26,260 nt of DNA, from positions 1-26,260 of IMG/VR virus record IMGVR_UViG_3300030012_001145; one strand, 5' to 3'. Shown piece after piece: positions 6,846 through 13,035 of the stretch. The position numbers were made by a program, and so were the translations under genes. Numbering within the stretch: the first letter of the stretch is position 1; every line of letters begins with the position of its first letter. The notes below the pieces were generated by a model. The model made no database searches and was not told the DNA's origin. It was given only the letters and a program-made list of their open reading frames with translations. Origin of the DNA: a virus.

Positions 6846-7167
6846 TTGGAGAGAAATCATACGAAAGGAGAATGCTCCCCTGCTAGAGAAACTAGACCCC
6901 AAGATGAAGAAGAGGGTGAAGAAGAACCTACAGGCCGCTCAACCCTCGGAGTTCTTCGGACAGGACTTCACTCGATTAGGTGAGTTGATCGAGACATTGA
7001 AATCCATAGGTGTCGAAAAGAGTGCCAACAAGAAGATAGAGGCGATGGAAGAGAAAAACTTAGACATCGTGGCGAATGCAGCCGAACTAAGAAAGGACTA
7101 CGAATTGCTATACAACCAAGTAAGAAGCATGATATACCCCAAGAAGAAAGGTGATTTGAATGAGTGA
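6838..7167 (+). CDS. Hypothetical helical protein opening MSDWREIIRK
   Basis: I place the start at ATG 6838 rather than GTG 6829. The ATG follows GGAGGGTGAAAAGG at good spacing, and the product then opens MSDWREIIRKENAPLLEKL, comparable to the upstream protein's MSWVSILKAE. The 109-residue product is charged and helical, with a basic patch near residues 22-35 (KMKKRVKKNLQ) and a likely coiled coil toward the end. It overlaps its neighbours at both ends by the same ATGAGTGA arrangement, which argues for coupled translation. No function is recognised. Confidence 0.75.
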   Translation: MSDWREIIRKENAPLLEKLDPKMKKRVKKNLQAAQPSEFFGQDFTRLGELIETLKSIGVEKSANKKIEAMEEKNLDIVANAAELRKDYELLYNQVRSMIYPKKKGDLNE

Positions 7168-7387
7168 ACAGGACAATGAGATGATGCTACTCCTGAAGGA
7201 GTTAGTAAACAAAGTGAAAGAACTAGAGAAGGCCGTGTACGATAAGGACAACATTCTGATGAAATCAGGGTATGTTGTTGTGGATAGTCCTTCTCCAACG
7301 ATGGGCAACACAACGACTCCAACAAGCGACAACATCGCAAAGATGTCTTGGGATGACATACACAAGATGGTGGAGAACGTAGGGTGA
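7160..7387 (+). CDS. 75-aa protein with scaffold-like C-terminal tag
   Basis: The protein has an acidic N-terminal coiled-coil helix (residues about 5-32, LLLKELVNKVKELEKAV), a Ser/Thr/Pro-rich linker and a C-terminus DNIAKMSWDDIHKMVENVG. That tail nearly repeats the C-terminus of the capsid protease-scaffold (ENIADMSWDDIHKLAGNY). In many tailed viruses the extreme C-terminal helix of the scaffold binds the capsid protein, so this small protein may dock on the same partner. The start follows GGTGATTTGA and overlaps the previous stop. The tail similarity is seen directly; the capsid-binding role is inferred. Confidence 0.75.
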   Translation: MSEQDNEMMLLLKELVNKVKELEKAVYDKDNILMKSGYVVVDSPSPTMGNTTTPTSDNIAKMSWDDIHKMVENVG

Positions 7388-7889: not shown

Positions 7890-10427
7890 ATGCCAACATC
7901 GGGAGTAGCATTCGAGAAGGATGCCGCATTCACAAAACGTGTCCTCGATGTTTTTGAGAAGGTCAGATTTTCCTACTTATCTGCATTACAAGACCCCAAG
8001 GAATACAGGGGAGAATGGAAGAAGGCAGTTAGTGGAGTCAGGAAGCATTTCGATGAGTTGAATGACTTCACTAGGGAACTGAAGAAGTTCGTGGATGAGA
8101 AGTACCTGTTTGACGACGAGGTTGAGAAACCCGATAGCCTTCAAGCCAAGAAACTATACAATGACATCAAGAGAATGAGATTCTCATCCAAGAAGATCAG
8201 TGATCCCTTCAGCGAGCAACTCGGTGAAAACGTACTCGATGTGTTGATGGAGAAGGAGGGGATGATGATAGCATTCCTACATTATGCAATAAGAACAGAG
8301 ACACTACCGATAAAGGAAGAGACATGGAAGAAGTATGATCTGCCTGTCGATACGATAACAGATGGCTCAAAGGGATTGGACCTGAAGGTATCTGACATTC
8401 CTCTCTTCATTATGGAACACTACGGTGAGGGTAAGAACACCAAGAGAGTGAAGGCCAAGGTTGACTCAGCGATGAAGAAACTCAAGGAGATGTACCTTGA
8501 GGATAACACAGAAGAAGAATGGGAGGCACTACTTGCTCTTGAGCAATCTATAACCAAGTCAGAGAAGGAGAAATCAGAGGTTGAGTTCTACATTCCAAAC
8601 AAGCCAATGTATAGAATATTCGAGATAGACGACATGAAGTACATCAAGGGTCTATCCGGTGAGTTTGTCGTGCAAGAGAAGTATGATGGAATGAGAATTC
8701 AGATACACAAGAAGGGCAGTGATGTCAATATATTCTCATTCAACAAGAAGGACATCACCGATAAATGCAAGAAGCAAGTCGATGAGATGAAGAAGAAACA
8801 TTTCGGGGATTGCATACTAGACGCAGAACTGGTAGGGTTTCAAGGGGATGAGCCTGTTCACAGGGCAGATGTCGTCACTCACATATTCAAGAAGGAAGTA
8901 GACGGGTTAGAACTCAAGGCACACGTTTTCGATGTCATGTACCATGAGGATAAGAACGTCGCAGAAGAACCCTTGAGGGAGAGAATCAACATATTGTTCT
9001 ACCAATATTCCCAACACTCATCGGAACATTTGGCCTTTCCGTCAAAGAAGGACACTAGAATCGCAGACTCATTCGATGAGATAGACAAGTACGCAAAGGG
9101 AATCATGGATCTCCCAACATCAGAGGGTGTGGTCATCAAGGACATAGAATCAACATACTATGTGGGAATACAGAAGAATCCTAAGTGGATCAAGTGGAAG
9201 AAGTTCGTTGATCTCGATGTCGTTGTGTTGGGTAAGGACAAGACAAAGAGTGGTCTTTTCACCTATAGAATAGGAATAGGACCAGTCACTGCTGAACAGG
9301 CTAGGGAGCATAAGACAGTGGAGATGGATGACATTGCATACATACCCGTAGGGAAGGCACTTAACACCAAGACCTCTGTTGATGTGGGTTCTATCGTTAG
9401 GGTGAAGGTTGATGAAGTCAGAAGAAATGGAGATGCCTACTCACTATACTCTGCCAAGGTCATAGAGATACCTGAAGTAAAGGAATCCGATAAACTACAG
9501 ACACTAGAACTTCTAGCACAAGATGCGAAGAAGTCATTGATCCAAGACTCAAAGGAATACATGATTAGAACTGAGGGACTAAAGAAAATGATAATCACTG
9601 ATGGAGTGCATGGTAATGCAGAGATCATAGTAAAATCGGATCTCGATGGCTTTCAGGTATACGGCATAGAGGGAGATGACCTGATGGCTAAGAATGCCCT
9701 TTACGACATAGACATATGGAAAGAGGAAATGACTGAAATGATGAAGACCATCAGATCAGAACTTAGATTGGCGATATATCAGTTCCTAAAGGATAAAGGA
9801 AGACCAACCCCATACAAAGATATTCTTGAGTTCGTCAAGGAAAAGCACTTGGATAAATTTGAGGGATATGTTTTCGATGGGGATCAGGATAAATTCAAGA
9901 AGTGGTTGATGAATCAAGAAACGGCTATTGTATATGATAAGAACAATGACACATTCTCTGAGAATGAGGAAACAATCGTAAAAGAGGCAAGTCAAAAGAT
10001 AGGGAAGTTTGTTGTAAACAAGAGAGAGGATGACAACCTAGACTTGGTTTTGATGCACGATGACAAAGAGTATGTTTGGACAATAGACATAGATGACATT
10101 GAAGATGTGTTCAATCTATTCGGTAAGTCTAGTAAGTTCCCTGCCGAGATAGCAACGAATAGACAGGACGGAATAAAACTAGACCAAGGGGAGGTTCTAT
10201 TCGGAGTACAAAGACATGGGTATCATGAATACAAGTTAGATGGTGATAGGTTCAAGACTCGACTACATGCTAGAGTAGTGCCTGTGGATGGTAAGGATAC
10301 ATGGGTAATATGGACAGGTATGAAACAAGAGATGCTAGATGACTCAGAAGATGAGGGACTTATCGATATAACAAAGGATAGGAATAAAAAGTTAACCCTA
10401 TCTAATACGGATGATCGAGACGCTTAA
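7890..10427 (+). CDS. ATP-dependent DNA ligase with extended C-terminus
   Basis: This enzyme would seal nicks in DNA through a lysine-AMP intermediate. The nucleotidyltransferase motifs are present in order: motif I EKYDGMR (K264, the predicted AMP-accepting lysine), motif III LDAELVGF (E313), motif IIIa AHVFDVMY, motif IV EGVVIKD (E412) and motif V WIKWKKF (K435, K437). An OB fold follows, ending near VDEVRRNGDAYSLYSAKVIE. The KYDGMRIQIHK text is archaeal/eukaryal in style, not bacterial NAD-type. The first 240 residues only loosely recall a ligase DNA-binding domain. Beyond about residue 545 come a winged-helix-like segment and a final domain (about 700-845) whose DGDRFKTRLHARVVPVDGKDTWVIWTG weakly recalls the LigD phosphoesterase domain. 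At 845 residues it exceeds the usual 550-600. The start follows GTGTGAGAC. Confidence 0.9.
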   Translation: MPTSGVAFEKDAAFTKRVLDVFEKVRFSYLSALQDPKEYRGEWKKAVSGVRKHFDELNDFTRELKKFVDEKYLFDDEVEKPDSLQAKKLYNDIKRMRFSSKKISDPFSEQLGENVLDVLMEKEGMMIAFLHYAIRTETLPIKEETWKKYDLPVDTITDGSKGLDLKVSDIPLFIMEHYGEGKNTKRVKAKVDSAMKKLKEMYLEDNTEEEWEALLALEQSITKSEKEKSEVEFYIPNKPMYRIFEIDDMKYIKGLSGEFVVQEKYDGMRIQIHKKGSDVNIFSFNKKDITDKCKKQVDEMKKKHFGDCILDAELVGFQGDEPVHRADVVTHIFKKEVDGLELKAHVFDVMYHEDKNVAEEPLRERINILFYQYSQHSSEHLAFPSKKDTRIADSFDEIDKYAKGIMDLPTSEGVVIKDIESTYYVGIQKNPKWIKWKKFVDLDVVVLGKDKTKSGLFTYRIGIGPVTAEQAREHKTVEMDDIAYIPVGKALNTKTSVDVGSIVRVKVDEVRRNGDAYSLYSAKVIEIPEVKESDKLQTLELLAQDAKKSLIQDSKEYMIRTEGLKKMIITDGVHGNAEIIVKSDLDGFQVYGIEGDDLMAKNALYDIDIWKEEMTEMMKTIRSELRLAIYQFLKDKGRPTPYKDILEFVKEKHLDKFEGYVFDGDQDKFKKWLMNQETAIVYDKNNDTFSENEETIVKEASQKIGKFVVNKREDDNLDLVLMHDDKEYVWTIDIDDIEDVFNLFGKSSKFPAEIATNRQDGIKLDQGEVLFGVQRHGYHEYKLDGDRFKTRLHARVVPVDGKDTWVIWTGMKQEMLDDSEDEGLIDITKDRNKKLTLSNTDDRDA

Positions 10428-10431
10428 ATAC
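10424..10431 (+). promoter_or_regulatory. Candidate archaeal TATA box ahead of the capsid module
   Basis: TTAAATAC, preceded by purine-rich GAGACG, overlaps the ligase stop codon and resembles an archaeal BRE/TATA element. If the box spans -30 to -23, transcription would start near 10454, where an in-frame GTG of the protease gene lies, giving a leaderless message. It is one of few AT-rich breaks without a GGTGA binding site before the next gene. AT-rich octamers are common, so this is tentative. Confidence 0.35.
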
Positions 10432-10438
10432 AAAGAAT

Positions 10439-11674
10439 GTGAATTTGTTCAGCGTGTTGGAACAACCAATGAGACTAGCCACAGATACTGGTGGTAGTTT
10501 TAATATCCTAAAATCAGACAACTTGGTTATAGGTGGCTATGCTTCCATAGAGGTTGTAGACAAACAAAACGATCTCATTACGTTGAAGGCATTGAATGAG
10601 GCAGTTCAAGGTTTCATGGGTGACAAGAAGTTCAGGAACGTCATGTCTAATCATTCAAACGTACAGGTTGGAGAGGTTATAGAATCATACAGGGATACGA
10701 ATGGAACCCTGCACAAGACGCAAGTAGATGATGTTGGGTTCTATGTTGTCATCAAACTAAGGGATGACATAGAGAAGGCCAAGGAAATATCAAGGGGAAT
10801 CCGAAAGGGAACCCTACGTTCCTTCAGCATCGGTGGTCAAGCACTATCGAAGCAGAAGAGGAACAACGACGAGTTTGGGGAGTACAATGAAATCGACAAA
10901 CTCGAATTACACGAAGTCACAATTTGTGAGAAGGGTATCAACCCGGAAGCCAAATTTGACATTTTAAAACAGGAAAAAGGTGAAAAAATGACTGAAAAGT
11001 TAGAAAAAGCCCTTGAGGAACTGAACACCCTGATGAAAGAGGTTGATGCCCTTTCAAAAGAGGAAATGGACGAGAAGGCCATGATGGATGCAAAAGCAAT
11101 GGACGAGAAGGCCATGTACGACAAAGCAATGGGTGAAGAGGAAACCGACAAGGAAGAAATGACAGAGAAAGAAGAGATGGAAGAAATGGACATGGCAGCC
11201 AAAGCCCTTGATGAAGATTCAACAAGGGACTACGAGGCTGGTGAAGAGGTTGTCAGTGGTGGAAGGCCAACGGCAGCACCTGCACAACTCGGACCAATTT
11301 CCAAAGGTCTAGAGAGTGGTGACTTCACTACTCTTGATCTATCCGTCGAGAACGTAGAGAAAGCGTATGAGCAGTTTAAGGCCGAGCAATTGGAGAAACT
11401 AGCATACGATTCTCTATCTAAGCAATTCGAGTCTCGATTTGCTAGAGAGATGGAAATGAAGAAATCTCTTGCTGAGAGAGCAGAATACGACGCACATGCT
11501 GAAGTATCCGCACTCAAAGAAGAGTTTGCTGAACTACGCAAGTCTCTAACAGAGAGGAACGATGCAATCGTTAAGGCAGCAGTGCCTTCCCTCCCTGAAG
11601 ACGTGCTAAAATCCGTTGAGAATATCGCTGACATGTCGTGGGACGACATACACAAGTTGGCGGGGAACTACTGA
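10439..11674 (+). CDS. Capsid maturation protease (XkdF-like) fused to scaffold
   Basis: The first 175 residues resemble the XkdF/HK97-type serine protease that matures procapsids: IGGYASIEVVDKQNDLI, a likely catalytic His in SNHSNVQVGEV (H72), and a likely catalytic Ser in GTLRSFSIGG (S128 or S130), closed by LHEVTICEKGINPEA. From residue 184 on it is a charged helical scaffold with a Met/Asp/Lys/Ala repeat (about 209-232), a linker near 262-285, a coiled coil at about 300-380 and the tail MSWDDIHKLAGNY. It lies directly upstream of the capsid protein. The start is uncertain: GTG 10439, GTG 10454 and ATG 10469 are all in frame and none has a clear binding site. Family and order are convincing. 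Confidence 0.88.
   Translation: MNLFSVLEQPMRLATDTGGSFNILKSDNLVIGGYASIEVVDKQNDLITLKALNEAVQGFMGDKKFRNVMSNHSNVQVGEVIESYRDTNGTLHKTQVDDVGFYVVIKLRDDIEKAKEISRGIRKGTLRSFSIGGQALSKQKRNNDEFGEYNEIDKLELHEVTICEKGINPEAKFDILKQEKGEKMTEKLEKALEELNTLMKEVDALSKEEMDEKAMMDAKAMDEKAMYDKAMGEEETDKEEMTEKEEMEEMDMAAKALDEDSTRDYEAGEEVVSGGRPTAAPAQLGPISKGLESGDFTTLDLSVENVEKAYEQFKAEQLEKLAYDSLSKQFESRFAREMEMKKSLAERAEYDAHAEVSALKEEFAELRKSLTERNDAIVKAAVPSLPEDVLKSVENIADMSWDDIHKLAGNY
10979..10990 (+). promoter_or_regulatory. Internal ribosome binding site and ATG for scaffold alone
   Basis: GGTGA at 10979-10983 is followed after four bases by ATG at 10988-10990, inside the protease gene and in its reading frame (residue 184). The spacing and sequence match the starts of the LAGLIDADG-type gene (GGAGGTGAAAAAATG) and the capsid gene (GAGGTGAAAAGAAATG). 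It sits exactly where the protease domain ends and the scaffold begins. Confidence 0.7.
10988..11674 (+). CDS. Nested scaffold protein from an internal start
   Basis: A 228-residue protein is predicted from the in-frame ATG at protease residue 184. It would contain only the helical scaffold, beginning MTEKLEKALEELN and ending with the MSWDDIHK tail. Phage lambda makes its Nu3 scaffold from an internal start in the protease gene C in the same way, so the arrangement is known in tailed viruses. Making more scaffold than protease would suit procapsid assembly, which needs many scaffold copies and few protease copies. The internal GGTGAAAAAATG is better than any start signal of the full-length gene. 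That the shorter product is made is inference. Confidence 0.65.
   Translation: MTEKLEKALEELNTLMKEVDALSKEEMDEKAMMDAKAMDEKAMYDKAMGEEETDKEEMTEKEEMEEMDMAAKALDEDSTRDYEAGEEVVSGGRPTAAPAQLGPISKGLESGDFTTLDLSVENVEKAYEQFKAEQLEKLAYDSLSKQFESRFAREMEMKKSLAERAEYDAHAEVSALKEEFAELRKSLTERNDAIVKAAVPSLPEDVLKSVENIADMSWDDIHKLAGNY
11066..11131 (+). repeat. 33-base tandem repeat in the scaffold region
   Basis: The 18-base unit ATGGACGAGAAGGCCATG occurs at 11066-11083 and again, identical, at 11099-11116, a period of 33 bases. The encoded peptide reads MDEKAMMDAKA then MDEKAMYDKAM. A more diverged third unit follows. The repeat lies in the flexible, acidic start of the scaffold and probably varies in copy number between relatives. 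Confidence 0.75.
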
Positions 11675-11685
11675 GGTGAAAAGAA

Positions 11686-13035
11686 ATGAGTGGATATGTT
11701 AAAACAATGAGAGATTTAGAAAGTTCTTCATATGGACTTACTGGCGGTGCTGCTGGTAATGCTGTATTGAAGAGTGCCGGATTGGTTGGCGGTTTCGGAA
11801 CTGCACACGATGGTGGAACATCCATCGCTACAGGTGCAACTGGACTGGCCGACCTATACAACGTCCTTTACGGACAGAAAGTTTGGTCGATGCTTAACCA
11901 AGAGGTTAACGCATTGTCTATGGTTGCTAAAAGACCATACACATCATCGGGATGGAGGGTTCTAAAGAGCCGTCCTCAAGGTGGCAGTGGTTCGTCCTTT
12001 AGCGTCACATCAGGCGGAGCAGCAGGTTCAACGTCTCCTGACCCGGCTATCATCGGTGGTGTTATTGAAAACGCTTCCCTAGGTAGCACTGGTTTTGAGG
12101 CTCTTGCTCCTGAGTATGACAAACTATTCGTCAGCCCAAAGACGGTGGCCCATCTATTCGAGTTCTCTGAACTTGGTATGGAACTTGCCGCTATCGATGA
12201 CGGTGTAGGTGACATCAGAGCAATAGTCCGTGAGGACATGGGTAAGCATCACGCTGAGTCTCAGAACAAGATGCTTCTGATGCCATTCGAGTTGTATGGT
12301 GCTGACACAAACGACGACGCAACACCAACCGATGACCTATCGAAGAACTACACTTCACTATTGAAGATCGTTTCTTCAGAGGCTGAAGTTGAGGCAATGG
12401 CTGCTGCTGGTCTAATCGGTTCATCCGATGACACCATCGAGAACGCTGCTGCTGCAATGAGGCAGATATACGGCAAAGCAAGAGGTGCAACTGGAAACGG
12501 ATACCTAGACGCTGTAATCAACTTCGGTGGTGGATACGCAGCAGGTGACGCAAGGCTACTAACACTAAGCCTACTCAACAGCGTCATCCGTGAGGTACGT
12601 GAGAACGGTGGAAACACCAAGGTCATGTTGACTGGATACGACACTGTTCAGGCTATCGGTGATCTCCTACAGGCCCAAGAGAGGTTCATGGACAGGAGAG
12701 AAATCGTGCCAACCCACAACGGTGTTCGTGGTGTCAAGGGTGCAGAAGTCGGCTTTAGGGTCGCTACCTACTACGACATCCCGATCATCCCATGCAAAGA
12801 CATGCCAAAGACGGGACAGGGTTCAGGTAAACTCAGCGACATTCTGTTGCTAGACACTGACCACCTATGGCTATCTGTGATGAAACCAACCCAATACTTT
12901 GAGGATGGTATCACCAACGGAAACCCATTCGGTGTTGGTAAACTCGGAAACCAAGGAATGTACAGAACCATCGGGGAAACCTGCTGTTCATTCTTCAAGG
13001 GACAAGCCAAGATTACGAACCTAAAGAGTGCTTGA
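11686..13035 (+). CDS. Major capsid protein (HK97 fold)
   Basis: This 449-residue protein should form the icosahedral shell. It directly follows the protease-scaffold and has the strong site GAGGTGAAAAGAAATG, overlapping the previous stop. The sequence is Gly/Ala/Ser-rich at the N-terminus. It continues with LYNVLYGQKVWSMLNQEVNALSMV, a surface-exposed variable region, and a C-terminal half typical of HK97-like shells: VMLTGYDTVQAIGDLL, a loop with REIVPTHNGVRGV, then VATYYDIPIIPCKDMP and ILLLDTDHLWLSV. Codon use is even and GC-richer than that of flanking genes, consistent with high expression. I see no transmembrane segment. The fold assignment rests on gene order plus these segments. Confidence 0.88.
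   Translation: MSGYVKTMRDLESSSYGLTGGAAGNAVLKSAGLVGGFGTAHDGGTSIATGATGLADLYNVLYGQKVWSMLNQEVNALSMVAKRPYTSSGWRVLKSRPQGGSGSSFSVTSGGAAGSTSPDPAIIGGVIENASLGSTGFEALAPEYDKLFVSPKTVAHLFEFSELGMELAAIDDGVGDIRAIVREDMGKHHAESQNKMLLMPFELYGADTNDDATPTDDLSKNYTSLLKIVSSEAEVEAMAAAGLIGSSDDTIENAAAAMRQIYGKARGATGNGYLDAVINFGGGYAAGDARLLTLSLLNSVIREVRENGGNTKVMLTGYDTVQAIGDLLQAQERFMDRREIVPTHNGVRGVKGAEVGFRVATYYDIPIIPCKDMPKTGQGSGKLSDILLLDTDHLWLSVMKPTQYFEDGITNGNPFGVGKLGNQGMYRTIGETCCSFFKGQAKITNLKSA

Follow-up and report, generated by a model that had tools for sequence, protein, structure and literature searches.

A conserved internal start site in a viral prohead protease gene points to a nested scaffold protein in putative magroviruses

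The stretch of DNA analysed here (the window) is a virus record of 26,260 bases with genes for a terminase, a portal protein, an ATP-dependent ligase, a prohead protease and an HK97-type capsid protein; all features described below lie on the plus strand. The gene of interest is an open reading frame (ORF) of 411 amino acids, counted from GTG 10439, in which the protease is fused to a predicted scaffold. It is followed by the gene for the major capsid protein (11686–13035; HK97 fold, SU10/HVTV-1 type; PF17236, PHROG 24667), which has its own Shine-Dalgarno (SD) sequence at 11675–11679 (-11.5 kcal/mol). An HK97 capsid, a prohead protease and an ATP-dependent ligase belong to the gene content described for the Magrovirales (PMC10160649, PMC10768690, PMC12999244), and the published description of this group (Aoguangviridae, Apasviridae) agrees both with the gene content of the window and with its marine relatives, found on contigs of up to ~100 kb. 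The window combines this capsid/protease/ligase content with a relation to the Druskaviridae, as set out for the Magrovirales (PMC10160649). Going by gene content, the viruses of this group appear to be magroviruses. Their hosts are presumed to be archaea (Poseidoniales), on the strength of published descriptions of similar viruses rather than of the window itself. Only three contigs of this virus type were present in GTDB genomes (L268–L270), in metagenome-assembled genomes labelled as bacterial (Maricaulis, Altibacter); these contigs are probably mis-binned, and hence no host link is drawn from them.

The N-terminal half of the protein is a prohead protease of the herpesvirus/HK97/T4 gp21-like kind. 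Its Peptidase_S78 domain (10502–10927) is recognized by Pfam (PF04586, E = 2e-10; match to residues 30–184) and by PHROG (head maturation protease); AlphaFold predicts a beta domain here, and the only significant Foldseek match in the PDB is T4 prohead protease gp21 (5jbl, E = 1.8e-4). The AlphaFold model, run on a 45-sequence alignment, has a mean pLDDT of 66 and a pTM of 0.38, and is therefore used for domain boundaries only. Numbered from GTG 10454, it consists of (i) the beta-rich protease, to residue 158, (ii) a disordered stretch at residues 161–180 (pLDDT <50), (iii) helices at 181–219 and 298–375, and (iv) a C-terminal helix pair at 382–405. Between protease and scaffold runs a variable linker (10934–10987), 7–16 codons long in relatives. 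The C-terminal tail (11597–11668; NIADMSWDDIHK; helices 382–388 and 396–405) is a putative capsid-binding element, and W396 is invariant in the 45-sequence alignment. Scaffold parts can be as little as 28% identical between pairs. The coiled coils, the helix pair and the position before the capsid gene fit the scaffold role predicted for the C-terminal half.

Elsewhere in the window, a coiled-coil-like protein of 75 amino acids (7160–7387) ends in NIAKMSWDDIHKM, a copy of the scaffold C-terminus NIADMSWDDIHKL. This protein matches the scaffold profile (E = 7e-8), and 21 IMG/VR loci encode relatives, several of which share the tail. It is possibly a second scaffold, or cargo with a capsid-binding tail, and as such part of head assembly.

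The linker also holds a putative ribosome-binding site. The sequence GGTGAAAAAATG (10979–10990) contains the SD motif GGTGA (10979–10983) and an ATG (10988–10990) that, as the first-pass annotation had it, is in frame at codon 184 of the ORF read from GTG 10439. Pairing of this SD with the anti-SD (AUCACCUCCU) is predicted at -9.7 kcal/mol. Initiation at the ATG would yield a scaffold of 228 amino acids (10988–11674), in the same frame and with the same stop codon as the protease ORF. In the protein numbered from GTG 10454 the nested methionine is residue 179, at the border between linker and coiled coil, with the first scaffold helix starting at residue 181; both this model and the end of the Pfam match at residue 184 uphold the proposed location at the protease-scaffold border. 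One genome alone does not put the site beyond chance, because, among 491 internal start codons in frame with genes of the window, 24 (~5%) score comparably (SD pairing of -8 kcal/mol or stronger). It is conservation in 210 distinct relatives that lifts it above chance.

The start of the full-length protein appears to be of a different type. The in-frame candidates (10439, 10445, 10454, 10457 and 10469) have SD pairing of only -0.1 to -3.7 kcal/mol. The likeliest is GTG 10454–10456 (-3.7 kcal/mol, no SD), which aligns with the initiating Met or Val of relatives; it is on this basis that the nested Met is counted as residue 179 of the real protein. GTG 10454 lies ~26 nt after the centre of a TATA-like box (TTAAATAC, 10424–10431) that shares bases with the stop codon of the DNA ligase gene before it, is the single match to our TATA patterns anywhere in the window, and is a putative promoter of a protease-scaffold-capsid transcript. 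Of 182 relatives, 155 carry a TATA-like box (TTAATATAG, TTAAATA) in the corresponding position, where shuffling predicts ~10, and 152 of these 155 also have an in-frame start codon 21–28 nt past the box centre. This is the distance that transcription initiating at the start codon itself would produce, and so the protease message is probably leaderless: the gene has the TATA box ~26 nt upstream and the lack of an SD that mark leaderless first cistrons in archaea. Archaeal ORFs that have a leader, distal operon cistrons among them, are often preceded by an SD, which leaderless ORFs lack (PMC7531240). A protease probably read from a leaderless message, with scaffold and capsid translated from SD sites downstream, would be in keeping with this pattern. 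The earlier claim that the nested start signal is stronger than any available to the full gene therefore stands for SD strength (-9.7 against at best -3.7 kcal/mol), but the two signals are not directly comparable if the full gene starts by a leaderless route. As a side observation, relatives share a conserved TTAATATAGT-like element, which could help to locate late promoters in these viruses.

Conservation of the nested site was examined in 210 distinct ORFs covering the border, after removal of duplicates and of halovirus-type genes. A first search for relatives used six peptide patterns, one of which (KQEKGEKM) spans the nested site; for this reason relatives were re-collected through the neighbouring capsid gene, with the capsid protein, two divergent capsid proteins and a capsid alignment including haloviruses as bait, and the result held. 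Most of the 210 ORFs come from this capsid-based collection. At the aligned position, 191 carry ATG, 13 TTG, four GTG and two ATT. The first set, of 80 IMG/VR protein relatives (63–84% identity), has ATG, TTG or GTG throughout, and a capsid-anchored sample of 80 loci, independent of the nested site, gives the same picture as the full set. On a tree of 153 sequences the nested start codon changed six times, and four of these changes stayed within ATG/TTG/GTG; in other Met-rich columns, just two of 52 changes from ATG yielded GTG or TTG. Residue 2 of the nested product is Ser or Thr in 193/210 relatives, as at a genuine N-terminus.

The SD is no less well preserved. It is kept in 205 of the 210 relatives—as GGTGA, GGAGG, GGAGGT or GGAGATGA—whichever of the three codon phases it falls in, and over 107 different seven-residue upstream peptides. 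While linker length ranges from 7 to 16 codons, the aligned SD-to-start spacing is 2–4 nt in 168 of the 205. Against synonymous codons drawn at family codon usage, the real SD has the stronger pairing in 97 of 107 peptides (mean -9.2 versus -6.0 kcal/mol; Wilcoxon P = 7e-18, to be read as approximate, since related sequences enter as independent peptides), and 15 control offsets in the same genes show no comparable excess over recoding. Across relatives, SD strength is equal to that of the capsid gene (-9.6 and -9.8 kcal/mol, respectively), and predicted RNA structure is lowest at the nested site (-0.9 kcal/mol, versus -1.5 to -7.7 nearby). A structure peak at +50 (mean -7.7 kcal/mol, 41 nt) marks a possible hairpin ~40–60 nt downstream of the nested start, and may be a mere consequence of the coding sequence.

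The first-pass annotation had proposed weighing the internal GGTGA and ATG of relatives against codon-neutral change. Both come through: substitution at the nested codon is of a kind particular to start codons, and the SD persists whatever its codon phase. Relatives with the same fusion and no internal site, which would speak against a nested start, are confined to one magrovirus-type ORF (L266, with ATT and no SD), in part a second (L129, with ATT and the SD GGTGA kept), and the distant haloviruses discussed below. As far as sequence comparison can speak to it, the evidence for a selected nested start signal is decisive.

The explanation that we favour, and regard as very probably correct, is that one gene gives two in-frame proteins: a leaderless protease-scaffold fusion and an SD-led nested scaffold. 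The TATA-like box at 10424 would drive a transcript with little or no leader, beginning at or next to the full-length start codon, and the full-length fusion would be translated from the 5' end of this transcript. On the same mRNA, 30S subunits would bind the internal GGTGA (10979) and initiate at ATG 10988, giving the 228-residue scaffold alone. The scaffold half of the fusion would take the protease into the procapsid, the nested product would be the bulk of the scaffold supply, and the protease would degrade the scaffold at maturation. What the sequences show is the site, how well it is conserved, where it sits at the domain border and how the TATA box is spaced from the start; ribosome use of the nested start, the leaderless protease mRNA, the excess of scaffold and these assembly roles are what we infer. 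Within coding sequence an SD does not have to initiate translation, a point discussed for Haloferax (PMC3986360).

Free scaffold could, hypothetically, arise by proteolysis only, with the protease cutting itself off at the linker. The flexible linker of the AlphaFold model is a plausible cut site, and fused protease-scaffold proteins without a known nested product do exist, phage P2 gpO being one. The encoding of protease and scaffold by a single gene is also mentioned in PMC8508860. Proteolysis leaves the nucleotide-level conservation of the SD and start codon unexplained, and as the sole source of scaffold we judge it improbable; self-cleavage at the linker may act in addition to the nested start.

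Alternatively, the scaffold could have its own internal promoter, as in herpesvirus UL26.5, rather than internal initiation on the long mRNA. Just upstream of the site, the AT-rich DILK codons (CATTTTAAAAC, 10960–10970) do resemble a TATA box. Yet the distance from the KFD motif to the start varies between 7 and 16 codons among relatives while the SD spacing is nearly constant, some relatives have GACATTCTGAAGG at the DILK position, the promoter-box pattern occurs only once in the window, at 10424, and a leaderless message would need no SD. An internal promoter was rejected as a general explanation because of the varying spacing, and its overall chances are low.

It is very unlikely that the site is a scar of gene fusion, that is, an unused SD and ATG left over from a once-separate scaffold gene. 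The components do occur apart: on contig L201, a distant relative, the S78 protease and a short acidic gene ahead of the capsid gene form two ORFs, and the protease of vir335 (Methanomassiliicoccales) is also unfused. An unused SD would, however, have decayed, whereas this one persists at synonymous positions and across indels and changes of frame phase, despite pairwise scaffold identity down to 28%. Finally, the notion that the SD-like sequence merely slows elongating ribosomes, letting the protease fold before the scaffold half with no initiation, draws on the domain-border position of the site (AlphaFold) and on the frequency of intragenic SD motifs in some archaea (PMC3986360), but is hardly credible given that pausing needs no start codon at a fixed distance, while 208/210 relatives keep ATG, GTG or TTG, with changes among these and with Ser/Thr following.

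Scaffold genes nested in protease genes are established in phage lambda (C/Nu3) and in Mu-like phages, and herpesviruses offer a related arrangement. In herpesviruses, UL26 encodes a protease-scaffold fusion and UL26.5 a shorter in-frame scaffold from a separate transcript. The present gene resembles this pair in having a fusion plus a predicted short in-frame scaffold product, and a protease fold of the same clan; it differs in that an internal SD, rather than a separate transcript, is indicated for the short product. The parallel with phage lambda C/Nu3 (Shaw and Murialdo 1980, as cited in PMC8508860), drawn in the first-pass annotation, holds up well: the N-terminal half is a prohead protease, the scaffold reading frame begins within that of the protease, in phase with it, and ends at the same stop codon, and a selected ribosome-binding site and start codon sit at the domain border. 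It does not extend to the protease family. Lambda C, from a bacterial phage, is of the ClpP/S49 type, and membership of that family was rejected for the present protease, which is Peptidase_S78/T4 gp21-like and from a presumed archaeal virus; a further difference from lambda is the leaderless look of the full-length start, behind a TATA box. In Mu-like phages (protease I/scaffold Z, BcepMu, KS10 gp28/gp29) the scaffold gene likewise sits within the protease gene, in the same reading frame, and has a separate SD and ATG (PMC2628397). These phages are bacterial, and a search of the phage collection detected no sequence similarity to them.

The closest named relatives are Druskaviridae haloviruses (HVTV-1, HCTV-1, HCTV-5 and HCTV-16), whose protease and capsid genes are homologous to those of the window and follow one another in the same way. 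Their protease, too, is fused to a long acidic scaffold-like region, but has a long N-terminal extension and linker. No SD-led start was found at their protease-scaffold border, and this fusion is the strongest counter-example to the arrangement described here. The missing SD does not exclude a nested start, since, according to experiments in Haloferax, translation there is not driven by SD pairing in 5'-UTRs (PMC3986360); the haloarchaeal hosts may not use SDs. Halovirus-type genes (L161–L164, L191, L192 and L196–L200) share a conserved Met in the motif NM[GTS][DE] beyond the protease domain, without an SD; this Met is a candidate nested scaffold start.

A more distant virus of methanogens, vir519 (Methanofastidiosa; BK063666, L365 2352–4751), encodes a fused protein of 800 amino acids, annotated as hypothetical, with an S78-like protease domain at ~397–586. 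At codon 590, 4–6 residues past the protease domain, lies a strong internal SD and ATG (-12.1 kcal/mol). This is a single case, and no relatives of vir519 were found in IMG/VR. Our tentative generalization, to which we give slightly less than an even chance, is that archaeal tailed viruses set the protease:scaffold ratio by leaderless and internal SD-led starts on one mRNA, that the arrangement is old and common to distant methanogen-virus relatives such as vir519, and that haloviruses have replaced the SD by another kind of internal start.

The literature searched, whose coverage takes in few of the subscription journals, yielded no description of a nested scaffold in archaeal viruses; the magrovirus papers within it give a prohead or capsid maturation protease and no scaffold. 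The arrangement is a known plan, that of lambda C/Nu3 and the Mu-like phages, in a new setting: a protease clan other than lambda's, a presumed archaeal host and a leaderless-type upstream start. Magroviruses, all of them uncultured, are described as ranking with the more abundant viruses in surface ocean waters, and their translation is listed as 'unknown' by the ICTV. If the nested start is used, a core morphogenesis gene of these viruses would gain a second product that annotation has missed, the nested protease-scaffold plan of lambda, Mu and herpesviruses would extend to an archaeal lineage, and the gene would offer a simple test bed for how archaeal viruses may pair leaderless and SD-led initiation to set protein ratios.
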